Source of the DNA: Chrysophaeum taylorii
Lineage: Eukaryota; Sar; Pelagophyceae; Pelagomonadales; Pelagomonadaceae
NCBI GenBank assembly: GCA_029834535.1
Contig: JAQMWT010000010.1
Location: forward strand, 145,420-209,419
Direction of reading: 5' to 3'
DNA length: 64,000 nt
Made by a program: the position numbers and the translations under genes. The notes beneath the pieces are model-generated. The model saw only the letters and a list, made by a program, of their open reading frames with translations. It did not search any database and had not been told where the DNA came from. Of this stretch, positions 209 through 64,000 are shown one piece after another. Within the stretch, counting starts at the first letter, position 1. Each line of letters starts with the position of its first letter.

Positions 209-230
209 GTCCGAAATGACTTTAAACTAA
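209..230 (+). other. Copia module-boundary motif (copy 1), reading SEMTLN-stop
   Basis: Match to a ~20-nt sequence found eight times in this window, always in copia-type elements and always at a junction between protein modules (core GACCGAAACGTCGTTAAAC on the sense strand). Here it lies between RNase H and the third ORF. In the RNase H frame it reads Ser-Glu-Met-Thr-Leu-Asn followed by TAA. Function is not known; see findings. Confidence 0.6.
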
Positions 231-6559: not shown

Positions 6560-6850
6560 GACAAGTGCAGGCCAGTAAGTTCACCTAGTCCCAATCTCTA
6601 ACCCCAGCAAGTTCACCTGTTCCCCTGAAGTTCACCTGGTCCCAATCTCTAACCCCAGTAAATTCGGCGTCGTAAACCCACACCCACTCACCCCACCCGC
6701 GTACTTATCTCCGCCCGGCAGGCACATCCCTCCTACCCCGCAAAACCACCCACATCTTTCATGCACCACACACACACGGACACCCCCCTCTTAGCAGTCG
6801 ACGTTTAAAGACAAACAGACAGACAAACAGACAAAAAAATTAACCGATGT
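6560..6850. repeat. Short internally deleted Helitron-like repeat (copy H1)
   Basis: Starts with CAAGTGCAGGCCAGTAAG, a left end shared with copies near 23.93 and 63.06 kb, followed by several AAGTTCACC...GTCCC subrepeats. It ends in a (CAGA/CAAA)n run and GTAGTAAAG. The segment before the run (GTACTTATCTCCGCCCG and onward) matches the other copies, but the helicase part is missing. It lies between the 5' ends of DNAAF5 and the downstream region of the next gene. Confidence 0.7.
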
Positions 6851-6867
6851 GTAGTAAAGATAAGAAA

Positions 6868-7884
6868 CTATTGAACGCATCTTTGCGCGGTGGCACGGAG
6901 CCAGGCTAGCGCAACAACCTGGCGGGCGCGGTGTCGGAGGAAGAGGAAGGCGAGGTCGCGTCGGTCGTCGGAGACCGTGCTGAGCTCCTTTTTTTTATGC
7001 GCACGAGGTCGCGGCGGATCGAGTTTTGCTGCTCGGCGAGCCGCTTTGAGATCGCGTCGCTCGGCGTAGAGAAGTCTGGTCCAGGCGCGCTTGTCGGCGG
7101 CGAGTCTCGTCTCCTCGCGTTCTAAACGCTCGAGGTCGAGGGAGGCCTGGTAGGTGGTCGCGGCGCGGGCCTTTTTCATTGCGGCCATTATTTTCGCGCT
7201 GGCGGCTACGGCGGCCGCGAGCTCGCCCTCGGCCCGCGCGCGGCGCGATTTTGTGGTCGCAGAGGGGGGCTGGGCCTTGGCGGCGGCGTCCAAGGCGGCG
7301 TCCAAGGCGGCCACGGCGTCCCGCGAGGCGCGGAGTTCCGTCACCAGCGCGCGCTCGGCGTCCGAGGCAACGCCGTAGTAGGGGTGGAGCGGCCCCGGTT
7401 CGCGATCGAGGCTCCCCGGGGCCAAGGCGGGATGCGGCGCCGGCAACCGCAACGGATTTCGGTCCTCGCAGAGCATTTTCACGACGTAGGGGTCTGCCCC
7501 CAGGCGGAAGACGGGGGCTTTACGGCCCAGGAGCTTCCGGCGACGTCTTAAGCCCAAGCCCAAAGAGATCGTCGCGCGCCTCGTCTCTTCCTCGTCGTCG
7601 CGCGACGCGTTCCGCTGCAGCGCCAGCTTGACCAAATCCAACTCGGACTCGTAGATGTCGGCCGTGCGGTCGTAGGTCACGTTGGGCAACGGTGGGTCGA
7701 CGTATGCTTTAGTAGGTAATATTCTCCGCCCGCGGACGACTTTGAGACCAGCTTCGACAGGTCGCGCGCGCATCGCCCTTTGCTGGGCGTTGAACACGGC
7801 CGCCATTCCCCACGGGCACAGAGGGTCGGCGAGGGCGTCGTACGCGGGGATGCCGCACCCCGCGACGCGCCACTCGGGCCGCAT
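6868..7884 (-). CDS. Hypothetical coiled-coil protein, 338 aa
   Basis: Complete ORF from ATG at 7884 with the GC-rich codon use of its neighbours. The N-terminal 150 residues are mixed, with a basic RRRRK cluster near residue 113. Residues ~175-300 are Ala/Arg/Glu-rich with long helices that should form a coiled coil, and the C-terminus is basic (HKKKELS... RHRARQ). No signal peptide or membrane segment is seen and I do not recognise a family. Its start lies only 47 bp from the divergent LSm11 start, so the two probably share a bidirectional promoter. A ciliary role would be a guess from the nearby DNAAF5 gene only. Confidence 0.65.
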   Translation of the reverse strand: MRPEWRVAGCGIPAYDALADPLCPWGMAAVFNAQQRAMRARPVEAGLKVVRGRRILPTKAYVDPPLPNVTYDRTADIYESELDLVKLALQRNASRDDEEETRRATISLGLGLRRRRKLLGRKAPVFRLGADPYVVKMLCEDRNPLRLPAPHPALAPGSLDREPGPLHPYYGVASDAERALVTELRASRDAVAALDAALDAAAKAQPPSATTKSRRARAEGELAAAVAASAKIMAAMKKARAATTYQASLDLERLEREETRLAADKRAWTRLLYAERRDLKAARRAAKLDPPRPRAHKKKELSTVSDDRRDLAFLFLRHRARQVVALAWLRATAQRCVQ

Positions 7885-25262: not shown

Positions 25263-25891
25263 TAGTAAGGACTGCTATGAAGACGGAGGGGGGGGCGTGT
25301 GCGTGCTTGAAGGTTTTTAAAGGTCGACGTCCTGCAGAGAGGGGGGGTGCTGCGTGTGTGGGTTTCTCGACCTGCGTTCGATAATGAAGCCTAGTTCCTA
25401 GTTTAAACCCGTCGCTCGTGCGTTCCGACTTCACGCAGTCAGCACAGCACGGTTCTACGGATACCAGCGGAGCTGAAATCACAATATACCTCGACCTGTC
25501 TCCCTCATTTCCACCGAGCGCACGGAACACTGCGAACCGAGGAACTCACCGGATAGTTGATGCGTAAATCCTATGAGTTCCTCGGTCCCCGTCTTTTTTG
25601 AGACCAGCGTAGGGGTAGGTCCGCCCTGGCGCTTACGCACACGCATTCTTGAGGGTGGCGGAAAGCTTGATGAGGGAATAAGGCAAGAATTACTACATTC
25701 AAGGAAATGCAACCAAGACACGCTGAGAACCACAACAGCTGGGAGTCTTGGGCAGATGAGCCTCGGGGAGCAGGACCTCCGTAAACGGAACCAACGAAAC
25801 GAGCTCAAGGGCTCCGGCTATTGTATATACCGAAAAAGTAGAAGTTCACTATTACCTGAGCAAAAGAAAGAGTGCACGTTACGAACACACT
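25263..25891. other. Spacer, nothing recognised
   Basis: Only short ORFs without family resemblance. A G-run GGAGGGGGGGGCGT lies at ~25286-25300. It separates repeat H3 from the tRNA-Gly pair. Confidence 0.45.
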
Positions 25892-25961
25892 CTCAGAAAC
25901 GGGAATCGAACCCGTGGCAAGCCGATGGCAACGGCTTATGTTGCCACTACACCATTCTGAG
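25892..25961 (-). tRNA. tRNA-Gly(GCC), copy 1
   Basis: 70 nt, no intron. Acceptor CTCAGAA/TTCTGAG, D arm GTGTAGTGGCAACATA, anticodon stem AGCCG/CGGCT with loop TTGCCAT (anticodon GCC), variable TGCC, T arm ACGGGTTCGATTCCCGT. All stems pair. No CCA encoded. Confidence 0.92.
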
Positions 25962-26003
25962 GTTAAAGGTTGCAACTTCCTACATTCGCTTCATTTCATA
26001 GCT

Positions 26004-26073
26004 CTCAGAAACGGGAATCGAACCCGTGGCAAGCCGATGGCAACGGCTTATGTTACCACTACACCATTCTGAG
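26004..26073 (-). tRNA. tRNA-Gly(GCC), copy 2
   Basis: 70 nt, differing from copy 1 by one D-loop base (GTGGTAACAT versus GTGGCAACAT), which is the more usual GGTAA-type D loop. Same orientation, 42 bp away: a tandem duplication. Confidence 0.92.
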
Positions 26074-43257: not shown

Positions 43258-45288
43258 CTAGGGCTTGGACTTGGTGGAGCCGAGAGTCGATTTGACGCTC
43301 TTGAACAGAACATTTCGAAACACAGGTACGACAGACAGTGTGTTAGGGCTATCTGAGATGGTGGACATCGTTACTGGTTCGAGAGTATCGGTATCGTCGT
43401 CGTCAGCTTCTGCTGTAAGGTGGTGAACACCAATAGGAGAATGGTGTGGTACCATGCGAAACGTGAGTGCAAGTAAAGCATTCAGTATGGATGGCACCAG
43501 CGAGTCAAGTTGTAGGGTGCCCAGTTGGTTTTCCAAGAAGTTGGACTCAGCGAACGGATCCGAGAAGATAGAAGAGTCTTCCGATTCACATGAGATCGGG
43601 ATGCTCTGAATGCATGAGAGCAACTTGTCACGCAGATGAAGGAGGTGATCGTCCGGGGAGGAGTGGCTGGCGGCATATTGGTCATGAGCGGTAAGAGTTA
43701 AGCGAGACAACAGCTCTGTAACCTTGTACAGTGTTATAAGTAACACGTGCGCGTTGGCTGTAGGAGGAAAGAGCCGGTTCTCCAGGGAGGTGATTGAAGC
43801 AATGGGAGTCTGTAGATCTGTGAGTAGAGATAGATTCTCAGCACTGAGAGTGTTGACCTTGCGAACGTGTATTCAAAGAGTTTCCTGGAGCTGTTCGACT
43901 TGTTGACGCAAGGCATCGAAATCATCAAGCGAAGCAGAGGGCGCAGGGTGTGTCGATGGCGAAGACATCTCCAGAGTAGGGTCGGATGTGGAGAGTGAGT
44001 AGTTTAGCGACGTTTCGGTCAACACATGCTGTGCAAGTAGGGGGTGTTTCGCGTTTAAAAAGCGCAGAGAGTCTTGATGTTCTTCCTGAGTATAAGTGGT
44101 GCCGAACATTACATCCAGGAGTGACGGCGGTTTTGTATCATCTGAAGATGATACGTGTCGTCAAGTTTTTGTACCCACGATTGGGCAACATTGGTAACCA
44201 CAGGTTGGAATTTGGAGGGCTTGAACATAGCCTGGGCTTTGCGACTCTGTGTTCGAACAAGAGTCACAAGGAAATTAAGATGCTCAAGGTGCATCTGTGT
44301 TATAAGCCGACGATCCAGTGCGAATGGCATTTGTGTAGTAGGATCTGTTGTGGCCAGAGCGGATACAGATAAGACCAAGTTAACAAGTGACGGGTGTTGC
44401 GCTAGCATACTTGTCAAAAGAGTATATAACTTTCTTAGCAGATGATAGATGCGCATGAGGTAAGCGCGTATATGACCGGCTGAGCGCGCATCACGAGGGA
44501 ATTGGAAGGAAGTATCATTGCAAGCACATACGGTAGGTTGAATAGGCACCTGATCAGTATTGTGACACGCGAAGCACAAACCAATAGTAATAGCAGACAT
44601 GGGGATGTGACCATTCTTCTTATGGTCGTCCGTGTTGAGGTGACTCAGCACTTCGGTGGGGAGTTCACGAGGCGTTTGAGCTTAGAACTGTACGTGGTCG
44701 AGACGAGGAAAGTCGGTTGTCCAAGATCATTGAGGCATCGCACACAAAAGGACGACAAAATGAAACGTTCGCGTTTGGGGCCTCTATAGCAGCCAATAGA
44801 AGCAATAGCAGGAGCAGCTTCCCAAGGCATAGCAATGGGTAAGCGCATGGATATGAATGTGGTCAGTTCCACGAATAATGAAAAGTCAGTAGACTCATAG
44901 ACGGAGTGTAGGGCAGTGATGAGTTCCACTCGCATAAAAGAAGAGAGAAATGGGGTGACAGGGACACGGAAGTTCTCAAGGAGAGAGATTCCTCGTTCGT
45001 ACAAAGCATAGTCCATGCTGAGGCCGTCCTGGAGCTTTAGCGATTGAGGTAAGATATTTTCGGCTGGTGTCGGTGCAACAGCAGCAGTCTGTGGGGTAAC
45101 AGTAGCAGCAGTCATGGGTTGTCGCTTCGGCGACAACCTGGGAGAAGGTTCGGCCGTGGAGAGCGAGCGTGGGACTGTCCTTCGAACGACTGGGGAGATG
45201 CCGCGGCCACGGGAGTGCCAAGAAAAGGACATGAGCGACACTCACACGCGTACAAAAAATTTGTGGCAAAAGAAGGTAGGGCCAGGGC
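43258..45288 (-). pseudogene. Third ORF of the 43-54 kb copia-like element
   Basis: Read 45288 to 43258 with two frameshifts (near 44648 and 44110) and one in-frame TGA (43873-43875). Features in order: Pro/Ala-rich start; FILSSFCVRCLNDLGQPTFL; IPMSAITIGLCFACHNTD; then CNDTSFQFPRDARSAGHIRA; helices; boundary motif LTETSLNYSLS; a short coiled coil (LDDFDALRQQVEQLQETL); HVLLITLYKVTELLSRLTL; an acidic DDDDTD patch. The two CxxC pairs, the RD/PA..HI.A segment and the final helical part occur in the same order in the 0.3-2.4 kb copy, so the proteins are homologous though very divergent. Function unknown. Confidence 0.7.
44000..44022 (-). other. Module-boundary motif inside third ORF
   Basis: Minus strand reads ACC GAA ACG TCG CTA AAC TAC = T-E-T-S-L-N-Y, in frame with the third ORF, between its CxxC part and its coiled-coil part. 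Confidence 0.6.
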
Positions 45289-45311
45289 TAGTTTAACGAC
45301 GTTCCGGTCAC
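45289..45311 (-). other. Module-boundary motif between RNase H and third ORF
   Basis: Reads ACC GGA ACG TCG TTA AAC TAG = T-G-T-S-L-N-stop, out of the RNase H frame because of a nearby frameshift, 6 bp beyond the RNase H stop region. Confidence 0.6.
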
Positions 45312-45316
45312 TAGGG

Positions 45317-45967
45317 TTAGGCATCTTCGATCCTGTAAAGGCTTGTCGTCAGAGGCATGATGCATACCGAGTAGAGAACGAAAAGTGGAGAACTTAGCAG
45401 CAATGGCTTTGTAAAACCATCAGCCACGTTTAGCTTGCCGGGAACATGATGGACTCGAATTTTCTGTAGCGAGATGTACTCACGGATCTTAAAGCCTCTG
45501 GCCGACAGTGCCTTGGAGCGAGATGATCCATCTGGGTTATTATAGGTGTGAACAGCAGCAGCATTGTCAGACAAGAGAGGTAGGCTTCTGATGAAGCGCA
45601 TATGTTCCGCAATTGGGTTGTCATTGCCATCGAAATCAACAGGATCAGCGGTGTTCTCACCATTAACATTGTTGACGTAGAAGGTGGGGTTGACGACAAA
45701 AGAGAGTTCCAACAGTAGCTTGCGTAGCCAAACAGCTTCATCAGCACAAATACTGAGGGCAATCAACTCAGCTTCGTGAGTTGAGCAGGAGACAATCGGT
45801 TGAAGCTTGCTTTTCCAACCAATAAGGCAGTTGAAAAGATAGAAGACAAACCCGGTGGTAGATTTCCTATTTTCCTGTGCTAAGGAAGGGGCGTTGTCAG
45901 CGTCGACCATGGCTACTAAGGGATCAAACTGTCCAGTGGATACATCCTGCGGTTGGTAGTCGACCAC
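45317..45967 (-). pseudogene. RNase H of the 43-54 kb copia-like element
   Basis: AMVDADNAPSLAQENRKSTT (RNase H start), FYLFNCLIGWKSKLQPIVSC, STHEAELIALSICADEAVWL (catalytic Glu), LPLLSDNAAAVH (catalytic Asp), RGFKIREYISLQKIRVHHVP and KLNVADGFTKP at the end. Open frame of ~216 codons; it is separated from the upstream RT frame by a stop. Confidence 0.88.
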
Positions 45968-46012
45968 AGTGGATAGATCGATTCTATTAGCGGAAACAGT
46001 GCGAAGGTGAGC

Positions 46013-46560
46013 TTAAATAGCATTACCTTTAGGATGAAACCAGAGGTGAAGTGAGCGGTTTTCCGGCTTCCTCAGGTAGCGGAGCAGGTGTTCTAGCATT
46101 TGGACGTGAACATACGTGGGTGCATGCATACCACGCGAACATCTGCCCAAGGCTTGCGAGAAGTCAGGTCTGCAGGCCACTTGCATGAACACCAGCTTGC
46201 CAAGGAGGGTGGCAAAGTGCGAGTTGATGTACAACTCTGTTTCAGAGCTGGGAGTGCCATCTTCATACTTGAAGGACGAAGACATAGGATATTTAAGCGG
46301 AGTTAGTTGCTGCAAGACAGGATGATCAGCGAAGAGTTCATCAAGCTTGGCTTGCACATCCAGAGAGATGGATCCGTCAGATGTGCGACACACACGCATG
46401 CCTAGGAGGGTATGGACAGGTTCAAACTGCTCTACAGCATACCGTTTGTGAAGGGCATCCTGTAACTCAGTACGAAGAGTGTCATCATTAGACACAATAA
46501 CAATTTCGTCTACAGACAGACTGCATACGACGAACTTAGCATGTGCGGATACTCGAGCAT
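46013..46560 (-). pseudogene. Copia RT C-terminal part with SVDE at the active-site box
   Basis: VVCSLSVDEIVIVSNDD occupies the position of the (F/Y)xDD box, so the second catalytic Asp is Glu and the first position is Ser. It continues with FEPVHTLLGMRVCRTSDGSI, LQQLTPLKYPMSSS, LGKLVFMQVACRPDFSQALG, standard copia RT tail. A frame break lies between this and the N-terminal RT part (stop near 46629). Confidence 0.8.
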
Positions 46561-46627
46561 ATAGGCAAGAGTCCGAATGCAGGCGCTTGTAGCCAAGGCT
46601 ACGGAAGAAGCCATCTATCTCTTTGTT

Positions 46628-48361
46628 CTAAAGAGATGGTGATTGCCGAAGTCCATAAAGTGACTTCAGCAGTTTCGGTAGGCGTCGGCCCTTGTACTTA
46701 GCGTCATCGGGGTCGATAAGCTTGATGCCGTCTGGTAACTGAACATAGACGCTGGCATCAATGTCAGACTGAACGAAGGCGTTCGGGACGTCTGCGTGGT
46801 AGACAGGCAATTGCTTGTATGCTGCAATAGCCAGTAGTACCCGGATTGCGGTCATTGTGGCCATTGGGCTGAAGGTGCCAAAGAAATCGGCGCCATGGGA
46901 TGCTAGGAAGCCACGTAGCACGAGGCGAGCCTTGTGCTTTACGTATTTGCCTGCAGAGTCCGTTTTAATCTTCAGCACCATCCTGCTGTCAATAGGGCGA
47001 GAGACACCGTCGGGTGACGAAAGTTTGAAGCAACCAAAGCGGATAATGTCGTGGAGTTCCTTGGCGATGGCCTTGAGGTAGGCGTGCCTGTCTTCAGGCG
47101 ACATACCGTGGAGGCACTTAAGTTTAAATTCGTCGATGGAAACGCCCGCTTCTTGGACCTTATATTCGTCAGGACCAACAGTGGCTGGTGAACTATAGTT
47201 TAACGACGTTGCGGTCGAGGCAGTGTGCGCGACTTCGGGATAAGCGGAAACAGCGTCAGTAGGAGGGGTAGAGGAAGCAGATTCCAGTTGAATATGGATA
47301 GTAGGGTCGGCATGTAAGACCTGGGTGATATAATCTGTAGAGACCAGAAGGTATTCCTCCAATTCAGACAGAGATGCAGAATTAGCGCCAAACTCGGAGG
47401 AGTTGTGATCGATAAAGCTGGTCGGCGCCAGATACGTAAGTGCATACTGTAAGGAAGAGATGCCAAAGGCAGCAGGGTGATCAGTGAACGCGGCTAAAAG
47501 AGGCTGCGGAATGGAGCGCGTAGGTGAACCATCAGCAGTTAGAAAGGTTGCGGCTGGGATGCTGGTCGCGCACTTAGCGTGGGCGAAGTAACCATCGACG
47601 TGCGGGTAACGGGCAAGTAAGTCAGTGCGCAACGGGAGAAAAAGACGAGCTAACAACGCATGTTCCCCCTCTGAGCAGATAGCAGACCAAAGGATACCAC
47701 CATTGATATGCAGGGCGGAGAGGGCGGGGGACTTGAACGTAAGAAAGTGGTGGCGGAGATCCCAGCGGAAATCGGCGAGTTTGCCACCAGCGGCTTTGTA
47801 AGCACCAATAGTAGACGCTTGCAGCCGGGCTTGGATATTCTTCCTGGAGGCTGCCTTGCGGTTGTTAGGTTGTTTGGAACCTGGGACATGAACGAGGTCA
47901 TCTTGTGCAAAAAGGTCCTTGTAAGAAGGAAGCAAGGGCGGCGGTGGCATAGAGCCAGAATCGTCGACGGGAGGAGAGTCGGAAGTAGGAGGAGAAGCAG
48001 GAGCAGGGGACGAAGAAGGAGCTGAGGGAGGTGGAGAGTGCCCCCTCTGAGGATGAGGTGTCCGTGTCCCCCTCTGAATGAGATGGTCTTGGATAGCAGC
48101 GTGGGGTGTGAGCGAGAAAGGCGCGGGGGGAGCGTGAGGCGGAGGAGCAAGTTCAGGATCAGGAGTAGGAGTAGGATGCTGGAGCATGTAGAGGAATTGC
48201 AGCTTGGACGAAACACGGATTTGTCCGTTTTCAGGGTTGAGGACGACGTCGGCAATATGGTCAACGGGTGGGGAGACGAGCGGGTTTTGCGCGTTAGCGC
48301 AACATAGATATAGGTACTTGCGGCGGCACGGTTCCCACTTGTGGTGCTCGTGGGGTTCCAA
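46628..48361 (-). pseudogene. Copia integrase end, linker and RT N-terminal part
   Basis: 577-codon frame. It starts with EPHEHHKWEPCRRKYLYLCC (end of integrase, compare KW.PRSRKGIFLGY), a Pro/Ser-rich linker of ~300 residues, boundary motif ASTATSLNYSS, then RT: LHDIIRFGCFKLSSPDG, SRMVLKIKTDSAGKYVKHKA, RLVLRGF, YHADVPNAFVQSDIDASVYV (first catalytic Asp), LLKSLYGLRQSPSL and a stop. The LINE insertion lies just upstream. Confidence 0.82.
47196..47218 (-). other. Module-boundary motif between integrase/linker and RT
   Basis: Reads ACC GCA ACG TCG TTA AAC TAT = T-A-T-S-L-N-Y in frame. Confidence 0.6.
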
Positions 48362-48370
48362 TATAAGGTA

Positions 48371-49093
48371 GCACTCTGCGCCGCTTCATACCGGTCGTCG
48401 ACCAGTTTAAGTACCTCGGCTCGGTCCTCTCGCGCGACTGCCGCGACGACTCAGACGTCGACGCGCGGATCAAGAAGGCGTCTCAGGCATTCGGTGCCTT
48501 GCGGGACTGCATCTTCGCCTCGAAGTCCGTCTCTGCTCGCGCCAAGCGCCTCGTCTATGTCTCGCTCGTCCTGGCCATCCTCCTTCACGGTGCGGAATCG
48601 TGGTGCCTCACCGAGGTCCTGTTCCGCCGGCTGCGGTGTTTCCACGCGCAGTGCGCCCGCGTCGTGTGTCGTGTGACCCGGAAGCACACCTGGCTCCACC
48701 ACATCTTAACGGAGATCCTGCTGCGGCGCCTCGGCCTCGAGTCCATCGACGTCTACGTCACGCGCCGCCAGCTCCGCTGGGCCGGTCATGTCGCCCGCAT
48801 GCCCTTCTCCCGACTCCCTCGCAAGATGCTCTCGTCTTGGGTCCGCTCCAAGCGCCCACCGGAGGCTCCGCAGATGACGTACGGGAGGACGCTCGCCAAG
48901 GCACTCCGGAAATGCGACATCCCCTTCAACTCGTGGCACGACCTCGCACAAGACCGCGCGCAGTGGCGGTCCGCCATCAACGCCTTTTCATCCCTCGCCT
49001 CCCAACTGTGTGATTTTGCTCTGTGATCCTGGACCGGCTACTGCCGGTCCAGCCTGGCTCCCATGCCCGGGAGAGGTCCGAAGTTAGTTAGTT
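48371..49093 (+). mobile_element. 5'-truncated LINE with RT C-terminal ORF and TTAG tail
   Basis: Inserted in the copia integrase, opposite orientation. One open frame runs to the stop at 49024-49026 (last 13 nt before the tail region) and encodes VVDQFKYLGSVLSRDCRDDS ... GALRDCIFASKSVSARAKRL, LLHGAESWCL, RRQLRWAGHVARMP, the end of a non-LTR retrotransposon reverse transcriptase. The 3' end GGGAGAGGTCCGAAG(TTAG)2 matches the two other LINE fragments. A clear target-site duplication was not found. Confidence 0.88.
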
Positions 49094-50431
49094 CAGCGCG
49101 GATGATCTTGAGCATGGCATGCTGGGGGGTGCTCAGTTGATTGTAGAGTAGCTGTTGCGGACTCAGGATAGCATGGTGAGTGCGCTCGAGCGTGGCGTTC
49201 GGGAGAAGGTTGTAGCTTTGGATGGTGTGTATTACCGCCCAGGGAAACATGATGGCTGGTTCCACGATCTTGGAGCCACGATCTTGAGCATTAAGGAGAG
49301 AACGAAGGCGAGTTGAGGAGGCGGAGGCGATGAAGCCGATGGCTGACTCGACTTCAAAGTTAAAGTGGTGCATGTACGGCGGGAAAGCGACGAGGTGAAT
49401 GCCCTTATCGACGCGGCACGGGGCGGTAATGTTACACAAAGTCCAGAGCTTTTATTGAACTCCGTGGCGTTGGTGGTGCGTGTAAAGTACACCAAGAGAA
49501 ACTTCGAGATAAGTTCTTTGAACACAATAATATGTGTGAAGCCTCCCCATTCTGATGGAATTGTCACATAGCCGCCGTCGCACGCCCAGACTTCGCCGGC
49601 TTTGTGAGTTTGCTCAAAAGAGGGCTTGGTCGGATTGAAGTGCTTGTGCGGGTGGCGCTTGTTATATGCGATGCAGTCGGTGCATAAGTCGCGATAGGGT
49701 AGGCCTGAGGCAGAGAAGCCAGGGCGAGCCAGTACGTTGGGGGCCTTGGCTGCGACGTTGTCGGGACAGTGGTGCACCCGGTGGAAGCGATTGGCAAGTT
49801 ATTTGGCGTTGAGGTATTCAGCAGATCCGTGTGCGAAGGATTTGCGAGGAATGGGATGAGCGGGGATATGACGTTTGCGCCGAACATCGAACTTGAGTTC
49901 GGTGTCCAAGGCAGGAGGAGGTGGTGCGTCGTCATCCTGGTGCGCGGCAGGGTCACTTGGAGGTGCATCCTCATCATCGCGAGTAGCGAGAGTATCTTCG
50001 TAGGACGAAGATGTATAGTTTAACGACATTTCGGTCAAGCAGTTGCTGGAGATAGACGTCATAAAGGCTTGTGCCAAAGACAAGGTATCTGTGCTGCACG
50101 TGGTGGAGGCCGGATCAAAGGTCATGGAGTTGGATACATAGGATTTCTTCGTCACGGCAGCAGTATGTTGGAAGGTAGGGTCCAACATAAGAGATTTAAT
50201 ATCGGCAACGAGGAGCGAGAGGTGCTTGTACAGTGTACGTACAGGCAGAGCATTGCTGAGCATGTCGCAGCAAAGGTCGTGGCGAAGAGACAAGAGGAAA
50301 GATTCCTGTTGCTTGGTGTGGTTGTGAGCACAAATCAACTCCGGTCGAGTAGGATGGCGTAGTTTCCCGCTGCGAGGGTCGAGTACGATAATGTTTGCAT
50401 ACCCTCGGACGGTGGGCAATGGAGCAAGCAT
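49093..50431 (-). pseudogene. Copia integrase (pre-integrase, zinc and core) of the 43-54 kb element
   Basis: Minus-strand pieces: YANIIVLDPRSGKL (pre-integrase), Asp/Pro-rich spacer with boundary motif CLTEMSLNYTSS, then FHRVHHCPDN ... LCTDCIAYNKRHPH (H-H-C-C zinc domain), VWACDGGYVTIPSEWGGFTH (first catalytic Asp), and after a frame change LVAFPPYMHHFNFEVESAIG (catalytic Glu), MFPWAVIHTIQSYNLLPN, SPQQLLYNQ. The segment with the second Asp is damaged. It ends at the LINE insertion. Confidence 0.8.
50016..50038 (-). other. Module-boundary motif upstream of integrase
   Basis: Reads ACC GAA ATG TCG TTA AAC TAT = T-E-M-S-L-N-Y in frame. Confidence 0.6.
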
Positions 50432-50479
50432 GGAGTGGATTTTAGAGCCGAGTTTGCGGTCACTTCCACGAATATACCC

Positions 50480-51295
50480 TATTTAGTGACTATGAGATAA
50501 GTGGTGATCTTCCACAGCAAAATGAGAATCCTTGTAGTCGAAAGAATTATCAGTGGCCTTGTAGGTAAGGCAGCCAGGCATCACAAGAGAGCATATGGAC
50601 AAGAGCTTTTGTATGGCGGTGCCATAGGTGGCAGCGGAGCCAACTTGGGGAAGGGTTTGGATTATCCACAAGTAACCCATAGACGGCTCCAATTATATAG
50701 ATCTGTCTCTGTCGCGGGGGACGTTGGAGGCAGTAAACGTATACGTGCTTCCAAACGCGTCAATGGAAGCATGATATTTGGCGGCGGCGTTTTCTATGGT
50801 GAGGTTGCCGTCAGAATGGTGGCCGCCGGTTAGGAAGTAGCTATTGAGGGATGTTGATGAGGCTGTAAGTAGTAACCTATGTGACGGTTGGTCAGTTTCG
50901 AAAACGGTTATGGAATAGGACACAGGAGTGGGTGAGTTGGTGTGCAATCTGGCAAGCACGCTATAGAGGATGGTAAAAGCCTTAACATGCAATGGAGTAG
51001 TTGCATGAGGCAGTGGATCCATGGAGGAGCGTTTGAAACACAGCTGATGATAAGTACACTCGGATTGAGCAGAGTGCGTGCGTTGCTCGTGAGCCTGTTG
51101 TGAGTGAAGGCGCAAAAATAACAAATTGAGTGTTTCGAGGTCAGTCATAGTAAGCTGAACAGAGCCTGTGCGAGAGTAAGGTGCGAAAGTGTTAGGAACG
51201 GGGACATATGGAGGATCGGGGAACACCCGGATCCAGTCTCTATAGATATTTTTGGATAGCCAAAGTCGTTTAGGAATGGCTTGTATGTCATCCAC
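50480..51295 (-). pseudogene. Unrecognised polyprotein region between methyltransferase and integrase
   Basis: Two frames (51295-50693, then 50692-50483). Contains IYRDWIRVFPDPPYVPVPNT and ITVFETDQPSHRLLLTASST, then a beta-rich stretch. It may include the target-recognition/C-terminal part of the methyltransferase-like protein or the start of the pre-integrase domain. No known signature. Confidence 0.5.
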
Positions 51296-51304
51296 GATCT
51301 TAAG

Positions 51305-52276
51305 TTAGGGGCGTGGGTGGTGGATAGGCCATGACAGTATGTTGATTGGTCCAGTAGAATACCTGCGTGCGATGCAGATCCATCTTCCCCTAGATTGGTA
51401 GTCGCCACAGAGGTAGGTCGGGAACCTGTCAACAACATCGACACAGTAATCGAGTGTGGCATGGATGAGATTGGCGACATTCATATGGTCTTGATGACAG
51501 TACTTGTGGGGTGGTGTCATCTCAGCCAGTAGTACCAAGGGTTGGAGAAGTTTGATGACAGACAGCATGCTGTAGAACAGAGAGTCGTCGAGCAGGCTGT
51601 GTAAGTCTTCGGTCTTATGCTGCTTTAGTACATTCCTGTTGGTGCAGGGAGGAGTGATCTCAATAATATCACAATAAAATTTGCGCCTTTCCTCTGGTGA
51701 GATTAGGTGAAGATGGTTGATAAAGGCGTGTAAAGATTCAAATAATAATACTGTAGGAAAATGGCGGCGTAGCATGCGCACAAGCGTATCATCAGACTCA
51801 ACAACAACTTTTACATTGATGTTTAAACCTAGGTCATTAGTGGCTTGAGACAGGAACTCTGGGGTTGACAAACCAGAACAGAGTAACATGACAGAGGGTT
51901 TGCGAAGATTGGGCCCTTGTGAGAGAAACACTGGGCGAGAAAGCATCCATGTTAATGGCGGAGTGTTTTGTTGGACGAACTTGTTATGTTCCCGAAGATT
52001 AAGAACCAAAGGGCGAATCCACGGGCGATCTGGTGAAACCCTCTTAAGGAGATATATATAATATGCCAGTAGATCCCTGTTTTCGTGGTATCGCTTGAGC
52101 GGAAATGCGCGGGAGCGTAGTTCGAGTTGCTTGTCGCGAGCGATGTTGTAGGTGAGACCAGGGAGAGCAGGCAAATTAGCTGCTACGTAATGTAGGGGAA
52201 TACGCACATCTTTGTCTATGCGGCTCGTGACAGCGCTGAGCTTTGGTTCAGATCGACCATTGAACACAGTGGTCAA
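51305..52276 (-). pseudogene. C5-cytosine DNA methyltransferase-like domain in a copia element
   Basis: Continuous frame of ~323 codons. Motif I appears as PSVMLLCSGLSTPEFLSQA (degenerate; FSGxGG expected), motif II/III region as VKVVVESDDTLVRMLRRHFP (family: ExDxxAxxxxxxNxP), motif IV as DIIEITPPCTNRN with the Pro-Pro-Cys nucleophile, motif VI region as LVLLAEMTPPHKYC (ENV altered), and motif VIII as YLCGDYQSRGRWICIARR (family: DYGxPQxRxRxxxxA), well conserved. The spacing is right for the family. Loss of the glycine-rich motif I suggests weakened or altered cofactor binding, so activity is doubtful. It lies between protease and integrase. Confidence 0.72.
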
Positions 52277-53005
52277 GTTCGTCTGGTTCTACTCGAGCAT
52301 GCTCAGGATAGCGAGATGTCGGTTGTGCACTGGCTGAAGACATAAAGTGAAATCAATCTTCACGTGACCGATTTGCGGATGATCTGGAAGGGGAACAACT
52401 ATATTACGGGTAATATCATATGTGAGGCACGTTGTTGTCCAGTGGCAGTTTGGATAATAATCGGCGCGTATTTGGAATCCAGTGGAATAATATGATTTGG
52501 TATTGCGAAATCGTATGTGGACATTAATGATATGGTAGCACACGAGTCAAAATATAAAAAGGAACAATGTTGGGGGACACTGTTTACCTTCATATATTTC
52601 GTTGGAAGTGCATTTTCCGAATGCGGGCAAGTAGTGGAGAGGCTGCCAGTGAAGAAGTTCTCCAGAAATAACAGGTGAGTTGGAATGATAATCGGCTGAA
52701 CAGGTGGTGATGGTTCGTCAGCCTCATCAGCCATGCCGTGCTTCTCATCAAATGATGATAGCGAGGTCTGATCGACATCCCTTGTGGTTTCGGCTGGTGG
52801 TGGTTGGTTGATGGCTGATTGGACCTGTGAAGATAGCGAGGACAGTAACGCTGGTGGTAACGCCGAGATGGCGGAAGCAGTAAAGAAGTTCGGCACATTA
52901 TCGGAGGGATTACCCTGCGTGTTGGAGGCATTCTTGGTATCTGTAGTAGGAGGAGTTGCCGTTGGGGTGGGAGCAGTAGCAGCAGTATGATGTTGTGGCT
53001 CCACG

Positions 53006-53028
53006 TAGTTTAACGACTTTTCGGTCGA
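53006..53028 (-). other. Module-boundary motif upstream of protease
   Basis: Reads ACC GAA AAG TCG TTA AAC TAC = T-E-K-S-L-N-Y in frame. Confidence 0.6.
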
Positions 53029-53640
53029 GGATAGATAAACGTCTACATCACAAATGATGTCTGATGTCTCTGCGAACATGAGTTGTTCGTTTAGGCGAAG
53101 TAAGTCACTATTGTCCTCAGTAGATGTCGTTGACAGAATATCAGCGGATTGCAACAGAGTCTCAAATAACTTGGTGGTGCTCTGTTGTAGCTGAGCCGTG
53201 ATATCATTATCCGTCACCTGCTTCGTAAGTTCACTACACTGCTCTTGCCGTGTATTTAAGGTGTGCTTCGTTCGATCTAACAATTTCATGTTAGATCGAG
53301 AGGACCTGTCGAAAGTGCGAGGGTAAATTGGACGGTCATGGGACTGTCCAGCAGTTTTCTTGGTGACATAAGAGTCACCAGAACGATAATACGATAGGTC
53401 GCTGCGAGAGAAAGGCTGGCGTGCATCGTTAGAGTTACGCAAGCGTCTAGCGTTAAACGTGGAGGATGTTCCAGGTTGAGAAGAAGTAATGGACGCGATT
53501 GTGTTTGCAGTTTGAGTCAGACTTTTGTCTGATAAATCCAGCGTGTTTGTTGGTAGTAATTTGGGCTTTGGTTGTGGTGTCAATCTTCCAACATAAGGCT
53601 GCCAAGAAACAGGGCGTTCTAAGCGTCTCTTGATCGACCC

Positions 53641-53651
53641 ATCTGATACCA
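53641..53651 (-). promoter_or_regulatory. Primer-binding site, initiator tRNA-Met type
   Basis: Minus strand TGGTATCAGAT, 7 nt after the end of LTR L3. TGGTATCAGA is the classical primer-binding site complementary to the 3' end of initiator tRNA-Met in copia elements. It shows that L3 is the 5' LTR of the 43-54 kb element. Confidence 0.8.
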
Positions 53652-53658
53652 CATTATT

Positions 53659-54058
53659 GGAGAGATTCGACCCTCTCCGGGTACGTGGTAGAGACTGCGT
53701 GCAGTCTTAGGCGTGTACAGACCATTCCGCTTGTCACATGCTACTATACAAGGTAAGGATTTAGGCCCTAACTCCTTAAGGACATTAGGTCCCATAGAAG
53801 CGCTCACACTGACAATGAGGAATGAAGCCTCCATTAATTAAACAGACAACCCATACCTGACGGTACGCACCTGGAGGTCTACTCCTTGTTGGAAGTGAAC
53901 TGCAGATCTAGTTCTCCATAGTCTGAGAGTCATAATGGCGGAAGGGCAAGGAAGGAAAGAGGGAAAGCCGTATTGCGGAGAGAAAACCCTCGAGTGGAGA
54001 TAGGTGTGAAAGGAGTGAGGTGTTCCAGTGTCGTACACGTAATAGTGTAGCTCTCTGG
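53659..54058 (-). repeat. LTR L3, shared by two element copies
   Basis: Same family as L1, L2, L4. On one side a primer-binding site and polyprotein follow (5' LTR role); on the other it directly follows a third ORF and purine tract (3' LTR role). Two elements therefore share one LTR. Confidence 0.88.
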
Positions 54059-56267: not shown

Positions 56268-56290
56268 TAGTTTAACGTCGTTTCGGACAT
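56268..56290 (-). other. Module-boundary motif, copy 2 element, at the end of the pol frame
   Basis: In the RNase H frame reads TCC GAA ACG ACG TTA AAC TAA = S-E-T-T-L-N-stop. Confidence 0.6.
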
Positions 56291-57255: not shown

Positions 57256-59509
57256 TTATGATTTCGAGCGTGTTGTGATATTATGTAAGGAAGTAGTATC
57301 GGTATCCACAACATCAGATGTGTGGTCCAATTCATCCTCGCTATTATCGTCCAGTTCCTTTAATTCTGGAGAAGACGAGTTGTGATCATCGGAGGATAGG
57401 TCGTTAGCGTTATTGTGTGTAGTCATAGCATCACTCAAGGTGACCAAGGGTGCCATAACAGACGAGAGGAAGGACATAGCAGCGTCTGGTGTTAGAGCGT
57501 GTAGATCCAAAGCAGGAATAACATGATCCTGTGCATCAGACATAGCTGCATGTAAACTGTGAGCTGCTTCGTCGATTAGAACTTGCTGTGCCTCATCATA
57601 CGTATCTGGGGGGAACTGTCCAATTGACGAAATGAGCGAGCTTGAAATTATGTGGACAAAGACAGCGAAGGTTGGGATTATATTGTCCTGGTGCATCTGA
57701 AGACTTGAAAGGATGTTATCTAAGATGGACACATGCTTAAAGTTTTCGGTCACTTGCGCGTTTGGGGTGTCGTAAGCTTCTTGCATCTGAGTAAGCGTAG
57801 TTAGCGTAACCGATAGCTGTTGATCTCGTGCCATCAATTGCTGCTCACTATTAGTGAGACGTGAGGATAAAGACGGAATCTCTTCTTTCAATTGGCGTAG
57901 AGATTCGGCCATATTGTCGTTAGCTTTATCTGGCGTGGGTTCAGCGGGTGGATTATCAATTGGTGCGGGGATAGCATCTTCAGATGAGGTACTAGCTGAA
58001 AAGGCATCAATGATGGCAGAAGGGTAGCCAACCTGGACTAGCACGTTTTTAAAGGCTGACTGATGATCAGGTGAAAGTTGGCGAAAGTAGTTAAGCATTG
58101 GCGGTACCGTCTCGGAAGAAGTCGCGTTAAGTTGGTGAGAAACGTCATTAACGAAGCGTTCAATGAGCACATTAAGTAGCTCATCAGGGTTGGTCACTAC
58201 ACACACACTTTATCCTCAATGGACTGTAACAAAGACCAAGCTGCTACAAGGATCTCGAGATTTACGCTTGAGATATAAGGCAGCTGTAGCAAGAGAGGGG
58301 CATTAGCGTCAGGGTTGGTAATGATTTTAGAAACATCGATATTAAAGCTTTCCATACACTGCATGAGCGCTTCTTTGAGCAGCTTGTTAATAGCAATGGA
58401 CTTTCCAAGGCGGAGGATGATAGCTCCTTTGTGTGCAGCAGGATCATTACAACATGAAAGGTGAAAGGATTGTCGATTATTGCGAATCAACGCTATTCCG
58501 TGGTGGGATAGGTTGCACATGACGCAAATCAACAGAAAGAAGGGACGCGGTACGTCGAAACAATGCGATGCGTGTTGTTCAGACGCGAGATTATCTTCAA
58601 TGATTTGCCTTATCTTGTCCGTTTTAGGCTCATCTTCAGTGCATATGATGAGTACAGGGGGGGTGTGCCCGGCGTGTCGGTTTTATTATAGCACCTGGTA
58701 CACGCCACATGTACTTTGACAACCCCTTTAATGGGTGGGCCGGTTGGCAGCCGGAACGTTCGCAGTGTAACGGGGTATGGCCGGGGGGCGAATACGGAAG
58801 GTTATCGACGAGTTTGTTGTCAGTCACATCGCGGTCCCCTCGTCGCATGGCGACAAGCTTGATGGCCACTCTCCGCCGACCGACCTTTCGGCGCTCCTCG
58901 TCTACAGGCCCGTGATTCCGGGCTGGCTCCTGTCGGTCCGGCCTGGCTCCCATGCTCGGGAGAGGTCTGAAGTTAGTTAGTTAGTTAGTTAGTTTAATGG
59001 GTGGAAAGCGATGATAGCGTATACCTTCGTTGGGCGAGATATGAGGCGCGTTCCTGATGCGTTTTGCCTTCACACAGAACAAGGAACTCAAAAAAGTGGA
59101 CATTATCTGCGAAATTTGTTTGTTGTGCTTCCGTAAGCAGTTGATGCATGGACTAATGCCAACATTGGGGGTCTTTAGGTGGTGGCAGCAGAAAATTTGG
59201 TGGCTGGGCACCATGCGCCATAACATTCCCTGACATCATCGCCATCACATCGAACTTACAGTGTTTGAGCAGGAAGTACTCGGGCCTTGCTGCTTGTGGT
59301 TTAGTTGATGACTTGGGTGTCACGGGCGTGGACTGATTTCCTTGAGCAACCGACAGATACGTTTGATGCTTCCGATTAGGAGAACTAGTCGGAGCAACGC
59401 CTGGATTTAATGCATTAAAAGGGGAGGATAGTGATGACACGCCACCGCGGCCACGATTCAGTACAGAATAACGACGGCTCGCAGCATCCTTATTCTTGGT
59501 TGGGTTCAT
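57256..59509 (-). pseudogene. Third ORF of copia-type element, copy 3 (interrupted by a LINE)
   Basis: ATG at 59509 (MNPTKNKDAASRR). Frames change near 59153 and 58200 and a LINE fragment sits at 58739-58992. Motifs as in copies 1 and 2 (LICVMCNLSHHG, RQSFHLSCCNDPAAHKGAII, QLKEEIPSLSSRLTNSEQQL, SEDELDHTSDVV). The CTKC pair has decayed (VPGAIIKPT frame). Upstream the sequence is cut by the Helitron-like repeat H8, so its pol is missing. Confidence 0.78.
58739..58992 (+). mobile_element. LINE 3' UTR fragment with (TTAG)n tail
   Basis: 254 bp, same 3' end as the other LINE fragments, flanked by a perfect 12-bp duplication TTTAATGGGTGG (58727-58738 and 58993-59004). Removing it restores the third ORF (FPPIK / GLSKYMWRV). 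Confidence 0.92.
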
Positions 59510-59605
59510 CTTAGAAAAATCCCCGCATTGCGTATTTCATTGCATTTCACATCTTAGCGAGCCACTGTTCCGTTGTATCCTTACTACTAATCGACAGATG
59601 TTTGT

Positions 59606-60121
<516 letters not shown>

Positions 60122-60359
60122 TTGTTTGTCTTTAAATGTCTAAGAGGGGGTGTGTGTGTTTGTCTTTAAATGTCGAGTGCTAAGAGGGGGGGGGGGGTTG
60201 TCTTTAAATGTCGAGTGCTAAGAGGGGGGGGGGGGGTTGTCTTTAAATGTCGACTGCTAAGAGGGGTGTGTGTGGGGAGCATGAAGGATGTGGGTGGGTT
60301 TGTGGGGTATGAGGGATGTGGGGGGGGTTGTCCCTCGATTTAGGGTAAGGATCAGGTAG

Positions 60360-60960
60360 GCCCGCGAGCCAGACAGTGATCCTCCAAGCCGTCTACGGCG
60401 ACCTCGCAGACTGTTTCCACGACCCGCGGCGGCTCTTTCAGCGCGCCATTCTCACGCCCCGTCGAAACGATGTTGTCGATGCTGACAACGCGCGCATGAC
60501 CGCGGCCTTTTTTCCCGGAGACGAGGCGTCGGAGTTCTTTTCGGCCGACTAGGTTGGGTCGGAAGACGACGCCTCGCTCTCAAGAGTCGAGTTTTGAACT
60601 CCCTGACAACCAACGGCATGCTGACTTTGATCGCGAGCTTAAAGTCTTCGCAACCTCGACCCGTCGCACGGCCACTGCAACCACTGATCGATCGTGTCGT
60701 TGTCACCGAGGCTCCTCCAACCTGTATCCCTTAAGGCCCGCCGACGCCAAACGATAACCAAGAGCCAGGGCCAGACGCCCCGCGAGGTCGGCGTCCTCTT
60801 GGCGAGCCCGTCTTCTGCCACGTCCAGCTCTACGTGGCTCTCTGTCGATCGGCAACCCCGAGGATCCTCTTCTGGGTCGACGACTCCACCCTACCACGTG
60901 CTGCGCAATACCGATAAGCCCTCCCGGCGTCTACACGCGCACTATAGGTTAACTTACTGG
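60360..60960 (+). pseudogene. PIF1/Helitron helicase fragment in H8
   Basis: Plus-strand pieces: ILTPRRNDVVDADNARMTAA, FFPGDEASEFFSAD, FELPDNQRHADFDRELK (from the FLNSLT..G.P segment), RTATATTDRS, ITKSQGQTPREVGVLLASPS and FCHVQLYVALCRSATPR in shifting frames. Same order as H2. Confidence 0.65.
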
Positions 60961-61305
60961 GACCAGGTGAACTTACTGGAACCAGGAACTTACTGGGGTT
61001 AGAGATTGGGATTAGGTGAACCTAGTGACCAGGTGAACTAACTGAGCACCAAGTGCGAACTTACTGGGGCTTTTAGAGTAAACGGTTTAGCGGCGTGTGC
61101 GGATCAAAGCAGCTTAGATTGGCGGGGGTGAGAGCGACGAGCTCGAAGGAGAGTGGGGTGAGTGGTGTGGGTTTACGCCGAACTACGAGATTGGGTTTAC
61201 GCCGAATTTACTGGGGTTAGAGATTGGACTAGGTGAACTTAACGGGAACGCGCTGCCTGCTGTAGAGATTGATAGGTGAACTTACTGGCCTGCACTTACG
61301 CGGAT

Positions 61306-61327
61306 TAATTTAACGTCATTTCGCATG
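61306..61327 (-). other. Module-boundary motif, copy 4
   Basis: TGC GAA ATG ACG TTA AAT TAA. Eighth and most diverged occurrence, at the end of the pol frame. Confidence 0.5.
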
Positions 61328-63062: not shown

Positions 63063-64000
63063 CAAGTGCAGGTCAGTGTTCACCTATCCCTCTCTAACCC
63101 CTAAGTTCACCTGGTCCCTGTTTGTATGTTCCACCTGGTCAGTAAGTTCACCTAGCCACACCACCTTGAGCCTGTCGCTCTCGCCTCCGCCACTAAGCTG
63201 CTTTGATCCGCACGCGCCGCTCAACCTTTGAGTTTACTCTAAGTCCTTACTTAAAAACCCCAGTATGTTCACCTGGTCCCAGTTTCACCTGGTCCTCAGT
63301 TCCCAGTCCCAATCTCAAACCCCGTAAGTTCACCTGGTCCCAGTAAGTTCCTACAGTGCGCGTGTAGACGCGGGAGGGGCTTATCGGTATTGCGCAGCAC
63401 GTGTGGGTAGGGTGGAGTCGTCACTCAGAAGAGGATATCCTCGGGGTTGCCGATCGACAGAGAGCCACGAGCTGGACGTGGCAGAAGACGGGCTTGGGAA
63501 AGAGGACGCCGACCTCGCGGGGCGTCTGGCCCTGGCTCTTGTTGATCGTTTGGCGTAGGCGGGCCGGGATACAGGTTGGAGGAGCCTCGGTGACAACGAC
63601 ACGATCGATCATGTATCTGGTACCGTTGCAGTGGCCGTGCGACGGGTCGAGGTTGCGGACATTAAGCTCGCGATCAAAGTCAGCATGCCGTTGGTTGTCG
63701 AGAGTCTCTACTGTAAAGAGCGAGGCGTCGTCTTCCGACCCAGCCTAGTCAGCCGAAAGAACCCGACGCCTCGTCTCCGGGAAAAAGGCCGCGGTCATGC
63801 GCGCGTTGTCAGCATCGACAACATCGTTTCGACGGGCGTGAGAATGGCGCGCTGAAAGAGCCGCCGCGGGTCGTGGAAATTCTGCGAGGTCGCCGTAGAC
63901 GGCTTGAGGATCACTGTCTGGCTCTCGCGTACCTGATCCCATCTCGCGCCTACCTGATCCTTACCCTAAATCGAGGGACAGACAAACAGACAGACAAACA
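63063..64000. repeat. Helitron-like repeat, copy H10 (inverted relative to H8, runs off the window)
   Basis: Left end CAAGTGCAGGTCAGTGTTCA at ~63062, a shortened AAGTTCACC zone, a helicase remnant on the minus strand (63.38-63.85 kb) and the start of the CAGA/CAAA run at 63980-64000. Many small deletions, like the copia relic next to it. Confidence 0.75.
63381..63850 (-). pseudogene. PIF1/Helitron helicase fragment in H10
   Basis: Minus strand: INKSQGQTPREVGVLFPKPV and FCHVQLVALCRSATPRISSS, plus FFPETRRRVLSAD and NDVVDADNARMTAA upstream in other frames. Matches the H3 and H8 fragments. Confidence 0.65.

Follow-up and report, generated by a model that had tools for sequence, protein, structure and literature searches.

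The stretch of Chrysophaeum taylorii DNA analysed here (64,000 nucleotides (nt), hereafter the window) carries on its minus strand a decayed copia element in which one short sequence, YGACCGAAACGTCGTTAAACTA, recurs five times. The conserved unit is 22 nt long, with little conservation on either side of it (22 rows, one representative per site and family), and it is present in several copia families as well as in a Ty3/gypsy element with identical long terminal repeats (LTRs). It is conserved at the level of nucleotides, it stands in a constant orientation and frame in the sampled copies, and at one site it is conserved in noncoding sequence. The unit is probably some signal of the sense RNA, and we tentatively propose that it could mark the 3' ends of cistrons or modules.

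Copies of the repeat in the window and in the genome

The five copies of the window element lie on the minus strand, each with 1 mismatch to the 21-mer which makes up the unit from its second position onward. Site S1 (53006-53026) separates the N-terminal region from the protease-like region and encodes T-E-K-S-L-N-Y, S2 (50016-50036) stands between the methyltransferase (MTase)-like region and the integrase (T-E-M-S-L-N-Y), and S3 (47196-47216) between the integrase and the reverse transcriptase (RT), where it encodes T-A-T-S-L-N-Y within seven codons absent from the family of elements called B below. S5 (44000-44020) is situated inside the third open reading frame (ORF3) and encodes T-E-T-S-L-N-Y. 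S4 (45289-45309) lies behind the RNase H open reading frame (ORF), its next base is G (TTA AAC TAG), and in most related copies it is noncoding. An earlier note on this DNA had described a repeat of about 20 nt between the modules of the polyprotein, with the in-frame peptide T-(E/A)-x-S-L-N-Y. The five places, the peptide and the boundary positions are as it described them, while the conserved unit has to be extended to 22 nt and the copy at 45289 moved outside the RNase H ORF, where it gives TAG. The three related copies that it mentioned exist as well, all of the S4 type: one in a family-B-like element (56268-56288, minus strand, 2 mismatches), one in a family-B element (209-229, plus strand, 4 mismatches) and a decayed one (61306-61326, minus strand, 6 mismatches); at 6 mismatches three more places in the window match, without relation to the elements. 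With a 19-mer of the motif and up to 3 mismatches the window gave 6 matches, against 0.04 expected.

The motif is not peculiar to this copia element, as a search with up to 3 mismatches found it at 1755 places of the 70.8-Mb assembly (873 and 882 on the two strands), with 1 and 0 places for the reversed pattern as a control, and also in the Ty3/gypsy element. We listed 100 exact places and read 72 of them, a sample of the 1755 and no full count. By recurring flanks or by element coding, 71 of the 72 could be assigned to mobile elements. The earlier note had named equal abundance elsewhere in the genome as an outcome that would speak against it, and among the sampled places this was not the case. 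The exception, locus L061, has a tandem pair of motifs in an uncharacterised ORF without a Pfam match. Over 121 occurrences, drawn from the window together with the fetched loci (five overlapping loci, L006, L008, L017, L022 and L029, are omitted, and two occurrences are counted twice, in L018/L053 and L019/L053) the motif is surrounded by many unrelated flanks: those of S1, S2, S3, S4 and S5, two places in gypsy, the tandem pair of L061 and a patch in the MTase-like region of locus L026. Family letters A-D were assigned by flanks and RT-bearing loci, D (L023) having been seen without RT. Contigs C25 and C521 show RVT_1 matches at almost identical coordinates, and likewise two matches of a transfer RNA (tRNA) acceptor-stem pattern; the assembly may hold both haplotypes there, with copy counts partly doubled.

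Conservation of nucleotides, strand and frame

The statement that the codons are nearly invariant, even outside reading frames, was borne out. When TETSLNY was searched in the genome with any codons (Ser as TCN) it was found at 353 places (control 0), and among 100 of these that were listed, 82 had identical codons for the first six residues by hand count, most of the other 18 being one change away from the common codons. The codon-conservation test which had been suggested gave third positions alike in 82/84 cases within the motif vs 100/213 in the flanks at homologous sites of different families, the first value being inflated, because most copies were found by exact match to the motif and the pairs overlap and share copies. 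In the only pair found without the motif (L038 and L046) the values were 6/7 in the motif vs 5/17 in the flanks. Freer evidence comes from the any-codon search and from the loci fetched through RT. The base before the 21-mer (position 0), which was part of no search pattern, is C or T in all 22 rows, and conservation stops at ...CTA, the next base being T in eight rows, C in eight, A in three and G in three. Copia and gypsy, two superfamilies, carry the 21 letters unchanged.

All 26 motif copies in the RT-fetched loci are on the same strand as RT, and the sampled coding copies are all in one frame (T-x-x-S-L-N-Y). This holds for eight separate coding contexts (S1, S2, S3, S5, the two in gypsy, L061 and the L026 patch), and the frame is the one where an added A gives UAA. 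One other sense frame of the motif is also open, and if both were equally likely, the odds of eight alike would be 1 in 256. The pattern of conservation points to an RNA signal, possibly one of mRNA ends, more than to a protein cleavage site.

The noncoding site behind pol

Twenty loci were fetched through RT, independently of the motif. At least one motif copy is present in 17 of them and S4 in 16, and in 15 of these 16 it is situated behind the pol stop codon, in the pol frame, 6-10 codons after the stop. S4 was not found in the other 4 loci: L031 shows a loss of about 32-35 nt, the motif among them, L033 stops at 2884 bases, and in L035 and L042 the place of S4 was not located. Translated onward from the end of pol, family A gives PLQD*RCLTLVTATSLN*, family B QQDG*SLPFTMSEMTLN* and family C DET*PLTLVTAMSLD* (asterisks for stop codons), while in L032 and in the window copy CGA replaces the pol-stop TGA. 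Between families, S4 is identical at 18-20 of 22 nt, compared with 3-11 of 22 in the adjacent 22-nt blocks. As S4 is noncoding and yet conserved, a protease site is no explanation for it.

Differences between families and spread of the motif

The earlier note had named intact elements without the motif at these boundaries as evidence that would refute it, and this is what family B shows at some boundaries, in contrast to the other families. No motif was found at the integrase/RT boundary in any of 11 family-B loci, family A being seven codons longer there, and none was seen at the MTase/integrase boundary or in ORF3 in the one family-B copy read (L054 + L055). Behind pol, S4 is present in 8 of the 11 loci; one locus ends before the site and one has lost S4 by a short deletion. 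Most simply read, S4 would be the oldest of the sites, and the others would have been gained later, in frame. A family-B stretch, T-D-T-S-L-I-L, was examined as a possible diverged S2 and rejected, because visual alignment places it opposite a different stretch of family A.

That the motif can reach new places is seen in L026, where an in-frame motif-bearing patch of 141 nt (1424-1564) stands at a point at which relatives have one codon; it adjoins the Cys of a P-P-C stretch in the MTase-like region and splits that stretch. A 138-nt probe, made of flank and the first part of the patch, matched 8 copies (94-100% identity) and, more distantly, one further place. The patch copies (L026 and L114-L120) are at the same place in aligned copies, several of them decayed, and were copied on with the element. 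Part of the patch resembles ORF3 sequence of L121 (81% over 62 nt). In L063 there is a single gypsy copy, flanked upstream like the first copy of the pair and downstream like the second, the intervening stretch being lost.

At S5 some copies are read through in frame, and 19 of 38 S5_A copies, by a rough pattern, have a T-run of varying length, often with TAA, directly before the motif, which means that the upstream frame ends or breaks there. These copies were picked by exact match, so it is their architecture and not the preservation of the motif that counts as evidence. Together, S5 and S4 suggest that what precedes the motif ends there.

Elements that carry the motif

All ORFs of the window element are on the minus strand. 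The N-terminal region, S1 and a protease-like D-S-C-A share the ORF at 52399-53706 (by eye, no Pfam match), which is followed by an MTase-like ORF (51305-52288; DNA_methylase E = 0.053, below the Pfam cut-off), an integrase ORF (49232-49798; rve E = 0.019, likewise below), an ORF with S3 and the reverse transcriptase (46628-48385; RVT_2 E = 1.6e-24) and an RNase H ORF recognised by eye (45317-46012), which ends upstream of S4. The assignment to copia rests on the RVT_2-type RT, for which the genome has 150 scored matches (best E 3.1e-43), and on the integrase being upstream of RT by order, its rve match being below the cut-off both in the window (E = 0.019) and in L054 (E = 0.0017). A protein search with the window's integrase/RT ORF returned one distant protein, 33% identical over 27% of the query, among 7993 candidates scored. 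The integrase region is interrupted by a GC-rich stretch (48367-49026), and a 71-bp piece at its edge (49023-49093) matches window 58912-58982 at 87%.

Direct LTRs were sought between L054 and L055 and on either side of the window element (40-64 kb); no pair turned up, and inverted repeats were seen instead. Near copia-like elements these include a palindrome of about 800 bp (L055:2174-2967, 85% identity), the pair L053:645-1010 and 6695-7059 (95%) and the pair at window 60329-61149 and 63164-63980 (83%). The copia-like elements may therefore have inverted ends similar to those of DIRS-like elements. The window also contains a tandem array (59599-60131; period 52 bp).

The gypsy element, on contig C5, has direct LTRs of 336 bp that are 100% identical. 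Its single ORF spans L005 and L051, 3067 codons by coordinates, and L051 contains RVT_1, RNase H and integrase in that order, all above the Pfam cut-offs; the ORF also has a C5-methylase match below the cut-off. The polyprotein has two motif copies 87 nt apart, and the frame is open through both. A protein search with the N-terminal piece gave no match at E 1e-5 or better among 7988 candidates scored.

Elsewhere in the window there are two adjacent tRNA-Gly (gcc) genes (25891-25961 and 26003-26073). In the assembly, contig C697 (103,599 bases) contains psaA, psaB and a Ycf45-like protein, named by our own reading, and we take it to be the plastid genome, which marks the host as an alga, probably one whose plastid is of the red lineage. 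C696 combines many tRNA matches with the strongest RVT_1 matches and probably represents the mitochondrial genome, group II introns included.

Possible functions of the motif

Three properties must be explained jointly: the constraint on nucleotides, the one constant frame and the conservation outside reading frames. We infer that the unit possibly acts in the sense-strand RNA as a 3'-end signal of cistrons or modules, by cleavage and poly(A) addition, a proposal we consider tentative. The transcript would be cut directly behind ...UUAAACUA and then polyadenylated, and in the coding frame ACC GAA ACG TCG TTA AAC TA|Y the first added A would complete UAA. One polyprotein ORF could in this way give nested truncated mRNAs, for the gag-like part alone, for this together with the protease and MTase-like part, and for these with the integrase, while full-length RNA would result from read-through. 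Behind pol, this signal would set the end of the pol mRNA downstream of pol's own stop codon. A 3'-end signal would cover all three properties, because the observed frame is the only one in which a cut after UA and the addition of poly(A) produce UAA, as would be the case in each of the eight coding contexts, and because S4 stands where the pol mRNA could end. By comparison, a protease site accounts for the frame only, and a site bound by a guide RNA or a protein for the nucleotide constraint and the noncoding conservation.

Several points weigh against a 3'-end signal. A length of 22 nt is unusually long for one, the end of the motif followed by a run of A occurs at 0 places in the genome (control 0), and the ten bases behind the unit contain no TGTTTGTT-like motif of the Blastocystis type, which stands four bases downstream. 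The argument from equal odds of the two open frames overlooks that TETSLNY may simply be the better tolerated peptide. No recognised host gene with the motif was found among the 72 places read, which were chosen by exact match from the 1755.

The unit could also be recognised in the sense RNA in another way, the 22 nt pairing with a small guide RNA or binding a protein for packaging, export or as a silencing target; the copies would then stand in linkers because seven additional codons are tolerated there. We regard this as conceivable, if rather doubtful. Base pairing would go well with a long and nearly fixed stretch, the 22/22 rows with C or T at position 0 all have a base that pairs with G, and conservation outside reading frames would be expected. 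The constant frame, however, is not explained by such a site itself, two patterns for a microRNA-like source hairpin (loops of 3-33 nt) gave 0 matches each, and none of 19 nuclear tRNAs pairs with the motif better than the best shuffles. A primer-binding site for a tRNA was accordingly rejected: these 19 nuclear tRNAs, from 65 scored tRNA matches with organelle ones included, showed no pairing beyond the best shuffles, the 23 places matching the acceptor-stem pattern (each on both strands; control 5) were read as repeats and not as tRNAs, and the sequence behind the gypsy 5' LTR differs from the motif. A DNA-level element, either a promoter for ORF3 and submodules or an insulator, bound by a protein of the host or of the element, would require nucleotides and no frame, and S4 does lie upstream of ORF3. 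The Drosophila gypsy insulator, in which one element has multiple protein-bound repeats, is a precedent. Constant orientation (26/26 in the RT-fetched loci) and constant frame would be unexpected for such an element, and we consider it improbable.

The earlier note had left a choice between a self-duplicated protease cleavage site and an RNA signal. The RNA half of this is favoured by the fixed codons and the noncoding S4, whereas the constant frame remains on the side of the protease. Cleavage at TxxSLN|Y or TxxSLNY|, with the DNA of the site carried to each new boundary by template switching, would fit this frame and the linker positions. Movement of patches from one element to another is indeed seen, and TSLN|Y is similar to the protease/integrase site of Ty1, VPTIN*NVHTS, in the portion of PMC6952103 at hand. 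Such a site should be coding everywhere, and S4 is noncoding and conserved across families; the codons are fixed, family B is without the motif at the integrase/RT boundary in 11/11 loci, and the sequence is common to a gypsy element. We therefore judge a protease site unlikely. The motif could also have no function of its own and spread as a hot spot of reverse-transcriptase template switching, which is suggested by the stretch lost between two gypsy copies in L063 and by the motif-bearing patch at one place in 8 copies. As this leaves conservation at homologous sites of diverged families unexplained, it is very unlikely. Least probable of all is a programmed -1 frameshift at G UUA AAC. Coding copies do have this heptamer in a suitable phase, and a similar one is known from arteriviruses. 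In the gypsy polyprotein, however, the zero frame stays open through both copies, inspection shows a -1 frame after the motif that varies from copy to copy, and S4 lies behind a stop. More generally, recoding at this heptamer gives no account of copies behind a stop codon. A canonical 3' splice site was rejected as well, as the unit is without any AG.

Comparison with known systems

The proposed cut has its closest likeness in PAY* and in nuclear genes of Blastocystis, where, in the excerpted account (PMC4159000), poly(A) turns a Tyr codon UAU/UAC or another incomplete stop into UAA, and where in Blastocystis a conserved motif sets the place. The likeness is in the stop made by poly(A). Here, in difference from that account (PMC4159000), a long motif would lie upstream of the cut, several times per ORF, the carriers as sampled are retrotransposons, and the RNA event is a proposed one. 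An early poly(A) end in a copia element has a parallel in EVD of Arabidopsis, which, in the part of PMC8892269 consulted, makes excess Gag from a short subgenomic Gag mRNA formed by splicing-coupled premature cleavage and polyadenylation. EVD has one early end coupled to splicing (PMC8892269, same part), whereas the repeat described here is found at several module ends and is common to gypsy. As regards proteolysis, the excerpt of PMC6952103 gives the Ty1 protease/integrase site a hydrophobic P2 and Asn at P1, comparable to TSLN|Y; the three Ty1 sites are unlike each other (PMC6952103, excerpt), while here the nucleotides are fixed and one copy is outside an ORF.

For the alga Klebsormidium, the part of PMC5890265 at hand describes a DNMT within the Pol polyprotein of an LTR Gypsy element. 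In C. taylorii, by contrast with that part of PMC5890265, copia and gypsy elements of one genome both seem to carry an MTase, with Pfam scores below the cut-off. The same part of this account of retrotransposon cytosine methyltransferases (PMC5890265) makes no mention of the motif. A literature search returned no occurrence of the peptide TETSLNY or of two typed forms of the motif sequence, and listings from a keyword search on retrotransposons with premature polyadenylation contained no such motif.

Taken as a whole, the proposal is that LTR retrotransposons which are unrelated but live in one alga have in common a 22-nt RNA end signal phased for poly(A)-made stops, that nested mRNAs are thereby made from one ORF, and that template switching carries the signal from element to element and from one superfamily to another; in this complete form it is a speculative one, less secure than the end signal itself. 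It has long been asked by what means a retrotransposon with a single long ORF produces Gag in excess over Pol, and a fixed RNA signal at module ends, common to copia and gypsy, would, if true, be a simple and testable answer to it in an alga. Whatever the mechanism, a run of 22 nt that is frozen in its nucleotides within the coding regions of two superfamilies, and that can reach new places in elements, is a striking example of a cis-signal common to competing mobile elements.

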